DNA of 45,482 bases, taken from assembly GCA_003818495.1 (NCBI GenBank), contig RPRK01000015.1, positions 1 through 45,482 of the forward strand. The letters run 5' to 3'. Shown piece by piece: positions 33,091-35,543 of this stretch. This stretch comes from Burkholderiales bacterium. GTDB lineage: Bacteria > Pseudomonadota > Gammaproteobacteria > Burkholderiales > Burkholderiaceae_E. A model generated the notes under the pieces. The model did no database searches. It worked only from the letters and a program-made list of their open reading frames with translations, and was not told the origin of the DNA. Within the stretch, counting starts at the first letter, position 1. Each line of letters starts with the position of its first letter. The translations under genes and the position numbers were made by a program.

Positions 33091-33151
33091 AGAGACGGGA
33101 ACGCCGCAGGCGGGGCGGCACGACGACCGCCCCGGGAAGACCGAGCGATAT

Positions 33152-33188
33152 CCTTGCAATTTGAACACCGCATGTTCAAAATGCAAGG
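33152..33188. promoter_or_regulatory. 15-bp-arm palindrome abutting the DUF4143 ATPase start codon
   Basis: The left arm 33152-33166 and right arm 33174-33188 are inverted copies with one mismatch, CCTTGCAATTTGAAC against GTTCAAAATGCAAGG, around the loop ACCGCAT. The last base is immediately before the ATG at 33189. On RNA this would be a long hairpin burying the ribosome binding region; on DNA it is a plausible operator for autoregulation. Its A+T content is far above the surroundings. Confidence 0.75.
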
Positions 33189-34343
33189 ATGTTCGATCGA
33201 ATCGCCAGAGCCCGGCTCGACGCGGCGCTTGCCCGCAGTCCGGCCGTGGCCGTCCTCGGCCCCCGGCAGGTCGGCAAGACGACGCTGGCCCGCGCTGCGG
33301 CCGCCGCGAGACCCGGCGCGGTCTACCTCGACCTCGAGACGGCGGCCGATCTGGCCCGCCTCGCCGACCCGGCGCGTTTCCTGGCGAGCCGGCGCGACCG
33401 GCTGGTCGTGCTCGACGAGGTGCAGAACGCCCCGGAGCTCTTCGGCGAGCTGCGCGCCGAGATCGATGCGGACCGACGCAGCGGGCGATTCCTCATCCTG
33501 GGCTCCGCCTCGTTCCGACTGCTTCGCCAGTCGCAGACCCTCGCCGGGCGGCTGGCGGTCGTCGACATGTCGCCGCTGCTGCTCGCCGAGATCGCCGCAC
33601 GCTTCGAGGACATCGAGCGCCTGTGGGTCCGAGGCGGCTTTCCGGGCAGTTTCACCGCCGGCTCGGACGCGGACTCCTGGGGCTGGCGGCAGGATTTCGT
33701 CCGGCACTTCCTGAACATCGACCTGGCCGCCTTCGGCATCGCCGTCGACCCGCCGAGCATGGGCCGGCTCTGGCGGATGCTCGCCCACCTGCACGGACAG
33801 CTGCTCAACGCCTCCGCGCTGTCGCGCTCGCTCGGCGTGTCCGCGCCGACCGTGGGCCGATGGATCGACCATCTGGTGGACGCGCTGGTCGTGCGCCGCC
33901 TGGAGCCGTTCCACGCGAATCTCGGCAAGCGCCTGGTCAAGTCTCCCAAGCTGTACCTGCGCGACAGCGGCCTGCTGCACGCGCTGCTCGGCGTCTCCGA
34001 TGCGGACGCGCTCGCCGGCCACCCGGGCGCCGGTGCCTCGTGGGAGGGCTTCGTGATCGAGCAGATCTGCGCCCGGCTGCCCGCTCATGTGCCGGTGAGC
34101 TTCTACCGGACGGCCGCGGGCGCGGAGCTCGACCTCGTGATCGAGGCGGGCGGCATGCGCATCGGCATCGAGGCGAAGCTCTCGTCGGCGCCGACGGTCA
34201 CGAAGGGGTTCTGGCAGGCCTGCGAGGACGTCGGCGTCTCGCAGGCCTGGGTCGTGGCCCCGGTGAGGGACGGCTGGCCGATCGGCGACGGCGTCGAGGT
34301 CGTCTCGCCCCTTGCGCTGCCGGTAGAAGGGTGGGCGGCCTGA
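33189..34343 (+). CDS. AAA ATPase with DUF4143 domain
   Basis: A 384-residue protein of the AAA_14/DUF4143 family. The N-terminal ATPase has Walker A LGPRQVGKTTLARAA (about residues 23-37), Walker B DRLVVLDEVQNAPELF and the sensor LILGSASFRLLRQS. A winged-helix-like linker (LSRSLGVSAPTVGRWIDHL) precedes the DUF4143 domain with SPKLYLRDSGLLHALLG, WEGFVIEQI and the nuclease-like ELDLVIEAGG plus IGIEAKLS (PD-(D/E)xK-type residues). These genes are mobile, often single, and of unknown function, perhaps defence or addiction related. This copy is preceded by a palindrome and followed by a nested palindrome and is unrelated to its neighbours. Confidence 0.92.
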   Translation: MFDRIARARLDAALARSPAVAVLGPRQVGKTTLARAAAAARPGAVYLDLETAADLARLADPARFLASRRDRLVVLDEVQNAPELFGELRAEIDADRRSGRFLILGSASFRLLRQSQTLAGRLAVVDMSPLLLAEIAARFEDIERLWVRGGFPGSFTAGSDADSWGWRQDFVRHFLNIDLAAFGIAVDPPSMGRLWRMLAHLHGQLLNASALSRSLGVSAPTVGRWIDHLVDALVVRRLEPFHANLGKRLVKSPKLYLRDSGLLHALLGVSDADALAGHPGAGASWEGFVIEQICARLPAHVPVSFYRTAAGAELDLVIEAGGMRIGIEAKLSSAPTVTKGFWQACEDVGVSQAWVVAPVRDGWPIGDGVEVVSPLALPVEGWAA

Positions 34344-34361
34344 GCGCGGTACCCCCCTCCC

Positions 34362-34484
34362 GAAGCCGTGAAGACACCGTAGCGAGCAGGCCCGAGCCGG
34401 CGCCGAGGAGCGCAGCCGTACTTCAGGTACGGCGGGCACCGCAGGCGCCGGCTCGGGACGCGCAGTCGGTTCATTCACGGCTTC
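34362..34484. repeat. Large nested palindrome (three stacked inverted repeats)
   Basis: Three perfect inverted repeats share one centre. Outer arms of 11 bp are 34362-34372 and 34474-34484 (GAAGCCGTGAA). Middle arms of 14 bp are 34391-34404 and 34444-34457 (CCCGAGCCGGCGCC). Inner arms of 7 bp are 34415-34421 and 34427-34433 (GCCGTAC) with loop TTCAG. The loop between inner and middle arms is exactly 10 by 10 bases. Single-stranded segments repeatedly show a GCGCAG/GAGCAG-like string. The right outer arm includes the last codons of the LysR gene. Candidate structured RNA, repeat element or end of an inserted cassette. Confidence 0.85.
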
Positions 34485-35379
34485 CGTGCATAGGCCAGGC
34501 CGCCCGCAGCCGACCGACCAGCGCCCGCGCCGCCTGCGGCAGGGCGTCCGGGTCGCGCACCACCACGCAGATCAGCGGATGCGCCCACGGCTCGTCGAGC
34601 GGCACGAAGCGCAGCCGGTAGATCGGTCCGTGGGTCGGCGCGAGGAAGGACGGCCCGACCCCGATCCCCATGCCCGAGCCGATCATCCGGCACACGCTCT
34701 CGAAGCCCATCGCGCGGATCCGCGTGCGCTTGACCGCGCCGGCCTGCGCGGCGGCCGCGTCCAGCAGCGTCGACAGCGCGCTGCCGTAGGTGAGGTCGAC
34801 CTGGTCCCAGTCGAGGGTCTGCGCGTAGCGCACGGTCTCGCGCCCCGCCAGCGGATGGTCCTCGGGCACCACCGCGCACAGGTCGTAGCGGTGGTAGGGG
34901 AACACCTGGAGCTCGTGGCGGACGATGTCGGGCGCGATGCCGATGTCGGCATGGCCTTCGGCGACCTGCCGGAACACCTCGGGCGTGTCCTGCTCGACGA
35001 GGTCGAGCTTGACGCCCTCGTGCTCGCGCACGAAGCCCTGCAGCAGCGCGGGCAGCCCGGCGGCGAGCGAGGAGGCGCTCGCCCGCACGCGGACGTGACC
35101 GCGCACGCCGGCGCGGTACTCGGACATCTCCACGTCGAGCCGCTCGATCGTGCGCAGCAGCAGCCGGGCGTGATGGACGAGCGCCTCGCCGGCCGGCGTC
35201 GGCCGCACGCCCCGGGGTCCTCGCTCGACCAGCGTCACCCCGAACATCGCCTCGAGCTCGGCGAGCCGCCGGCTCACGGCGGAGGGCACGATGTGCTCGC
35301 GCGCCGCGGCCCGGGCGATGCTTCCGGCCTCGACGATCGCGACGAAGAGCCGGGCGGAGGTGGGGTCGATCCGATGCAT
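34471..35379 (-). CDS. LysR-family transcriptional regulator
   Basis: A 302-residue LysR regulator. The N-terminal winged HTH (LFVAIVEAGSIARAAAREHI, VPSAVSRRLAELEAMFGVTL) and a substrate-binding domain (residues 95-295, with EQDTPEVFRQVAEGHADIGI) are typical. It is divergent from an HMG-CoA-lyase-like and CoA-transferase pair and probably controls them in response to a dicarboxylate or its CoA ester. ATG at 35379 was chosen; a TTG seven codons upstream is possible. Its end runs into the outer arm of the nested palindrome, so the last residues (HGSRE) are encoded by the repeat. Confidence 0.93.
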   Translation of the reverse strand: MHRIDPTSARLFVAIVEAGSIARAAAREHIVPSAVSRRLAELEAMFGVTLVERGPRGVRPTPAGEALVHHARLLLRTIERLDVEMSEYRAGVRGHVRVRASASSLAAGLPALLQGFVREHEGVKLDLVEQDTPEVFRQVAEGHADIGIAPDIVRHELQVFPYHRYDLCAVVPEDHPLAGRETVRYAQTLDWDQVDLTYGSALSTLLDAAAAQAGAVKRTRIRAMGFESVCRMIGSGMGIGVGPSFLAPTHGPIYRLRFVPLDEPWAHPLICVVVRDPDALPQAARALVGRLRAAWPMHGSRE

Positions 35380-35543
35380 GGGCAGGAGCAGGCTGGGCAA
35401 AAGCAGGCCTTCAGGTCAGCCGTCTCGGATCGAGAGGGGGGAGGTCCCGATCGGTCGCTTGCAGGCCGAGGTCATCGCCGCCAGAATCCGCAATGGAAAC
35501 GCCTGCATCATAGTGCCGTACGGTCCGGGGAGGGCCGACGGCA

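Follow-up and report, generated by a model that had tools for sequence, protein, structure and literature searches.

What is the long palindrome that overlaps the 3' end of a LysR-family regulator gene in a Burkholderiales contig: a terminator, a structured RNA or a mobile repeat? The window, that is, the whole stretch of 45,482 nucleotides that was analysed, had been described in an earlier note as carrying three inverted repeats with a common centre and a TTCAG tip at positions 34362-34484. The window sequence bears this out, and the palindrome and its two neighbouring genes are laid out as follows.

34362-34484, + strand: whole element, 123 bp; + is the strand with the favoured folding (the row strand)
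34362-34378, + strand: left outer arm (terminal inverted repeat), own-genome family consensus GAAGCCGTGAAGAAACC
34379-34390, + strand: left outer internal loop GTAGCGAGCAGG, nearly invariant
34391-34404, + strand: left middle arm, a covarying stem
34405-34414, + strand: left inner loop GAGGAGCGCA, conserved
34415-34433, + strand: tip hairpin GCCGTAC-TTCAG-GTACGGC
34434-34443, + strand: right inner loop GGGCACCGCA, conserved
34444-34457, + strand: right middle arm
34458-34467, + strand: right outer internal loop ACGCGCAGTC, own-genome consensus ACGCGCAGTA
34468-34484, + strand: right outer arm, containing the LysR stop codon (34471-34473) in the window copy
34471-35400, - strand: LysR-family regulator gene, whose 3' end extends 14 nt into the element
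33189-34343, + strand: AAA_14/DUF4143 gene, the convergent neighbour, ending 18 nt left of the element

As read from the window sequence, the outer arms (11 bp, 34362-34372/34474-34484), the middle arms (14 bp, 34391-34404/34444-34457) and the tip arms (7 bp, 34415-34421/34427-34433, enclosing TTCAG at 34422-34426) are each perfect. The note's further claim of perfect arms over 123 bp does not hold, as the longer ungapped arms are only 74% and 83% complementary. The inner loop is 10 x 10 (34405-34414/34434-34443), and the strands of the outer internal loop measure 18 and 16 nt when counted from the perfect arms. The similar strings that had been noticed in the unpaired loops are indeed present and vary hardly at all within the hairpin family, and the end of the LysR protein is indeed encoded within the palindrome, inside which its gene terminates. 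The 151-nt stretch 34350-34500 folds at -86.9 kcal/mol, compared to -62.65 +/- 4.36 for its shuffles (z -5.56; reached by 0/200 shuffles). No named RNA class could be assigned, in agreement with the note: the best Rfam match at the element scored 17.4 bits where the gathering score is 44, and Rfam gave no match above threshold at the elements of 18 related loci.

Lying between convergent genes, the window copy might be taken for an ordinary intrinsic terminator of that gene pair. We consider this extremely unlikely. The U-run that follows the stem of a Rho-independent terminator is absent 3' of the palindrome in the window sequence and, as judged by eye, from the flanks of other copies, as expected from the note's remark that this is not a simple terminator. 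In addition, 59/106 copies among the matches listed lie between tandem genes, and many closely similar copies occur genome-wide.

These copies establish the repeat family that the note had proposed. A search of the window's own genome (5.34 Mb, 572 contigs) showed that the element is not single-copy but occupies about 27 places, with one decayed fragment besides; 20 of the places cover most of its length, three have an insert in the tip and four are partial. Three pairs of places (C163/C305, C23/C144 and C222/C291) have common flanks or sequence and look like the two contig ends of one copy, which leaves roughly 24 copies. The 19 full copies align with a mean column identity of 92%. Being short, multicopy and without a transposase gene, and having terminal inverted repeats in its 17-bp outer arms, the 123-bp element has the properties of a MITE. 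Among 12 genomes of the genus, with the best 88 candidates scored per genome, covariance-model hits were found in G000 (24), G007 (11), G009 (15) and G011 (11), where a few hits repeat a listed copy on its reverse strand; the other eight gave none. Carriage of the element within the genus is patchy.

The element is non-coding and mobile. We compared 12 own-genome loci with 40 orthologous stretches from six genomes (G003, G005, G007, G008, G009 and G011), scoring presence by motif, and found 7 stretches filled and 33 empty, one of the latter, at the window locus, being without left-hand synteny. At four loci, the element is flanked on both sides by TCA where the empty site has a single TCA (L015 versus G007, L013 and L012 versus G011, and L009 versus G005). 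TCA flanks both sides in 7 of the 21 own copies with a left flank and is absent in 14, including the window copy, whose flanks are ccc and cgt. The filled and empty sites and the location at gene ends agree with the note's impression of a repeat that had landed at a gene end. When window positions 33091-34484 are compared with the corresponding locus of sister genome G011 (L383), the LysR gene end there adjoins the end of an FAD-oxidase gene directly, and G011 lacks the AAA_14/DUF4143 gene as well as the element at this locus. Directly 5' of the AAA_14/DUF4143 gene, the window also contains a near-perfect inverted repeat, CCTTGCAATTTGAACACCGCATGTTCAAAATGCAAGG (33151-33187), a possible operator.

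A candidate mobiliser was found in a relative of the same order, G332 (3 contigs). Here, the arm motif also bounds eight copies of a 1258-bp element, with ends such as GGCCACCTCGAATAACC and GGGAACCTCGAAAAACC compared to GGGCACCTCGAAAAACC for the arms of the palindromic elements. Identical 4-bp flanks were seen in 7/8 copies of the 1258-bp element and, of 11 palindromic elements examined, in 5 of the 8 whose two arms could be located. The 347-aa product of the 1258-bp element scores 273.5 bits to the IS5-family model NF033581 (cut-off 140) and also matches DDE_Tnp_1. By association, this resident IS5-family insertion sequence is likely the mobiliser in this one relative. In G257, YTAR duplications flank 5/9 longer relatives (CTAA, TTAA, TTAG, CTAG, CTAG) and 3/3 near-identical 143-nt copies (TTAG, CTAA, TTAA), YTAR being the target of IS5. 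The window's own genome yielded no insertion sequence with matching ends, all 41 arm matches falling in element copies of an assembly whose 572 contigs could lack such a partner; the end string for a partner in the genus is GAAGCCGTGAA. Of the 12 genus genomes, one encodes a relative of the G332 transposase at E<=1e-5, with 30% identity. With no arm partner in the own genome and a single distant transposase relative in the genus, the mobiliser of this lineage is one that we infer.

We regard it as probable that the palindrome is a non-autonomous element, a MITE mobilised in trans by an IS5-type transposase and inserting at short targets, flush at gene ends. Such a MITE would keep a conserved hairpin core, and its outer arms would serve as terminal inverted repeats for a trans-acting DDE transposase, most likely an IS5-family one. 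Insertion would duplicate short targets, TCA in the own genus and 4-bp YTAR-like sites in the two relatives. The lack of a matching insertion sequence in the own genome (41/41 arm matches in copies) and of a duplication in 14/21 own copies overall, the window copy among them, count against this reading, as do an orientation bias that target choice leaves unexplained and the recurrence of the same gene ends across genera, both described below. The arms and 4-bp duplications that the G332 element shares with an IS5-family insertion sequence resemble those of IS5-family-derived MITEs, which are likewise non-coding. Unlike in these MITEs, a hairpin core is conserved while the arms differ between lineages (GAAGCCGTGAAGAAACC in the own genome, GGGCACCTCGAAAAACC in G332 and CAGGCCGTTGAAAAACG in G257), and no partner was found in the own genome.

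Another class of mobile palindromes, the REP/REPIN elements, has a GTAG-tagged hairpin and depends on a RAYT (Y1) transposase. The element here is likewise palindromic, intergenic and multicopy, with GTAG at the core edge in many copies, and carriers G000, G009 and G011 have one Y1_Tnp gene each. However, GTAG is replaced by GTCG in many other copies, the element is much longer than REP/REPIN elements, and target duplications of three to four bases, which do not agree with the Y1 mechanism, were found. Y1_Tnp genes are present in 10/12 genus genomes searched, including 7/8 members without the element, and are absent from carriers G007, G014, G015 and G018. Since this phyletic pattern does not support a link to RAYT, we rejected the association, and a REP/REPIN-type origin is highly unlikely. 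In the own genome, the Y1_Tnp-domain gene (L063, 3311-4012) sits amid a housekeeping gene cluster with neighbours that we take to be dgt and gltB; no element copy was seen in the stretch read around it.

The hairpin structure is under selection. In a model alignment of 69 sequences (A2, which omits L093, L138 and some others), 90.6% of the cells of a 47-pair structure are paired, compared to 69.1% after shuffling. Changes on both sides affect 33 pairs, with 723 such cells versus 224 in the shuffled alignment. The covariation score of 0.545 exceeds both the shuffled value (0.150) and the best slide (0.135), and 0/500 shuffles equalled or surpassed it. The stems thus covary strongly, where the note had named arms that do not covary as a reason to abandon a structured element. 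Across the family, the loops are nearly invariant while the stems are free to vary, although the invariance of the tip follows from its use as the search pattern.

Unexpectedly, selection acts in favour of the fold formed by the strand that is antisense to the flush gene. With one copy counted per group, stem mismatches on this strand are G.T in 54 cases and A.C in 9, and the G.T excess by copy is 20 to 1 (sign test p 2.1e-5). Mid-stem counts of G.T to A.C are alike whether the setting is tandem (76 to 15) or convergent (42 to 7). The same strand folds better in 101/106 copies (-72.0 versus -63.8 kcal/mol), and is also favoured in the opposite-orientation copies found (L096, L163 and L037) and, in the sister class described below, in 4/5 opposite-orientation copies, the fifth being a tie. 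The favoured fold is therefore not that of the upstream mRNA. Of the new structured RNA that the note had suggested, the structure is upheld by covariation, whereas the RNA nature is called into question because the favoured strand is antisense to the flush gene; the element may thus matter as DNA.

We take the strand asymmetry to be a property of the element as such, perhaps one of a single-stranded intermediate. Alternatively, it may reflect selection against a too stable mRNA hairpin, against which the few opposite-orientation copies argue weakly. A bolder and rather doubtful extension is that selection maintains the core as a module in its own right. The module would exist as a folded intermediate, either ssDNA or antisense RNA, always of the polarity antisense to the flush gene, and would swap outer arms to ride whichever IS5-type transposase its host carries. 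If true, it would be a class-wide parasite built on structure and not on transposase sequence. The strand-specific selection on folding observed here also offers a way to ask if repeats of this kind work at the DNA or the RNA level.

Copies of the element are usually found at gene ends. The right-hand gene is antisense to the element in 21/21 own copies where one was called, and in 18 of these its stop lies within 2 nt of the element edge. Gene contexts were called approximately by a frame-aware script, and 16/118 places were dropped since the core edge was not located. Among the 106 copies from named-species loci in the matches listed, 76 are flush (<=8 nt) with an antisense gene and 4 are flush in the opposite orientation, 2 copies being counted in both. 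The 143-nt class and G332 show a less marked bias: 11/29 copies of the former are flush in the usual orientation and 5 in the opposite one, and 2/8 copies of the latter are flush in the usual orientation, which counts against the gene-end reading.

Much of this placement is explained by target choice. In sampled stretches of the own genome, an antisense gene has its stop codon at 36/52 of the noncoding YTCAG sites that lie apart from elements (46/69 when sites beside elements are included). In GC-rich genomes, targets of this kind outside coding sequence would largely be stop codons, so that inserted copies would end up directly beside gene ends without disrupting the gene. The bias in orientation is not accounted for by target choice and calls for selection or for an insertion complex that is itself asymmetric. 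An inserted copy would probably be co-transcribed with the upstream gene, yielding a long 3' hairpin that may alter mRNA stability or termination.

It is possible, though we lean against it, that the element is primarily a 3'-end element selected for its benefit to the host, either a terminator without a U-run or a hairpin with a role in mRNA stabilisation or processing, with mobility being secondary. This would be compatible with the MITE reading. It could account for the strong covariation over at least 25 named genera and for the stops of antisense genes within 8 nt in 76/106 of the copies in the matches listed. In three loci, from Variovorax, Pseudacidovorax and Pelomonas, the element also begins 3-4 nt beyond the tRNA-Sec 3' end. 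It begins 1 nt past SRP RNA in one locus, and lies 3' of ftsZ in three loci, of rplL in three and of pstB in two tested loci. The return of the same gene ends (ftsZ, rplL, pstB and tRNA-Sec) in different genera may indicate retention for function. Conversely, 8/12 genus genomes are without a copy and 33/40 orthologous sites are empty, so the element is not needed there; the U-run is absent, and the strand with the favoured fold differs from that in the mRNA of the upstream gene. Small mobile hairpins reshape gene ends, and copies of the present one lie behind ftsZ, rplL, pstB, tRNA-Sec and SRP RNA in some genomes. The covariance model, the known filled and empty sites and the candidate transposase of one relative make its movement directly testable.

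We determined how widespread the family is by searching species genomes for the tip as an exact pattern, GCGCAGCCGTACN{3,9}GTACGGCGAGCAYCGCA, which matched at least 116 stretches. The named matches were sorted into at least 27 groups, at least 25 of them named genera and nearly all betaproteobacterial, with a family length of about 121-123 bp. Carriers include Ralstonia, Cupriavidus, Massilia, Herbaspirillum, Janthinobacterium, Zoogloea, Thauera, Aromatoleum, Variovorax, Ramlibacter, Roseateles, Rubrivivax and Chromobacterium, among others. Outside the betaproteobacteria, the pattern was found in the gammaproteobacterium Solimonas and in one Spirochaetaceae bin, where two short contigs (L093 and L138) carry the tip motif in a different setting and binning contamination is possible. 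No exact match occurred in viral contigs, and no match to the element was found with three queries against plasmids and two against phages. In a limited literature search of open-licence papers, we found no description of the hairpin family, which is apparently unnamed so far.

A longer sister class, of about 143 nt and with composites that reach 370 nt, is found in other genomes of the phylum; sequence comparison by itself relates it to the 121-nt class. The HMM built for the 121-nt class hit 17 times at E<=1e-3 among 30 loci of the 143-nt class (best 2.2e-8) and had no hits at this threshold on reversed sequence, while the reverse comparison, from the 143-nt class to the 121-nt class, gave 58 hits (best 7.3e-13). 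With the best 9 candidates scored per genome, model R1 had a hit in 39/398 genomes of the phylum. Since R1 is permissive, scoring the wrong strand of true copies at up to 57.9 bits and an unrelated hairpin at 25.4 bits, we trust only the 12 of these 39 genomes with more than 58 bits and treat the weaker hits as leads. The strand comparison with R1 covered 100 of the at least 116 loci with the tip pattern. Matches in G002, G013, G016 and G017 appeared spurious on reading.

Among known repeats, ERIC (enterobacterial repetitive intergenic consensus; IRU, RU-1; 127 bp) is, by analogy, the nearest relative in behaviour. Both are dispersed, mobile, non-coding repeats of similar size that form a single long imperfect hairpin and are associated with a target duplication. 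De Gregorio 2005 reportedly found that stop-adjacent ERICs prefer one orientation, which is also true of the element here, if less so of its 143-nt class and G332. The row strand is the stabler one in 19/19 ERIC copies as well. Beyond behaviour, a true homology, with both descending from one ancient proteobacterial family, is unlikely. The hosts differ, R1 and R2 score at most 13.5 and 10.5 bits at ERIC sites, and sequence HMMs found nothing at E<=1e-3 in either direction, so that homology could not be demonstrated by sequence or covariance models. Most of the 19 ERIC copies compared are not flush with a stop codon. Furthermore, the target duplication of ERIC is TA (PMC2759123), compared to TCA or 4 bp here. 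In Yersinia, ERIC has an orientation-dependent effect on upstream mRNA, according to a source that also describes Correia/NEMIS (Neisseria) and YPAL/RU-2 (Yersinia) as small non-autonomous elements with long stem-loops and target duplications, like those of the element here by description (PMC2229807). Bor-1 of Bordetella is an intergenic stem-loop repeat of similar length in the Betaproteobacteria, with model lengths of 117 in B. bronchiseptica and 93 in B. pertussis (PMC2267715); compared by this description, it may or may not be related to the hairpin family. Overall, the element is a MITE that moves and whose hairpin core is conserved to an unusual degree; it is common in Betaproteobacteria and, in one relative, tied to an IS5-family transposase by association.

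Several variant arrangements were also observed. A hairpin family of about 123 bp (GAGAACCGGAGCGGAGCGTAC...GTACGTGAGCACCGGAAGCGCAG) in genomes of 6-7 Mb (L241, L242, L269-L274, L277 and L278) looks like a distant relative and is kept as a lead, the best sequence HMM E-values of 0.021 and 0.001 being non-significant. Composite copies in L028, L030, L031 and L032 carry about 70 bp with additional hairpins in the tip, and those in G257 reach 370 bp with unchanged ends. In L118 and L064 (G015) and L065 (G014), the element occurs in head-to-tail arrays with a spacing of about 125 bp.
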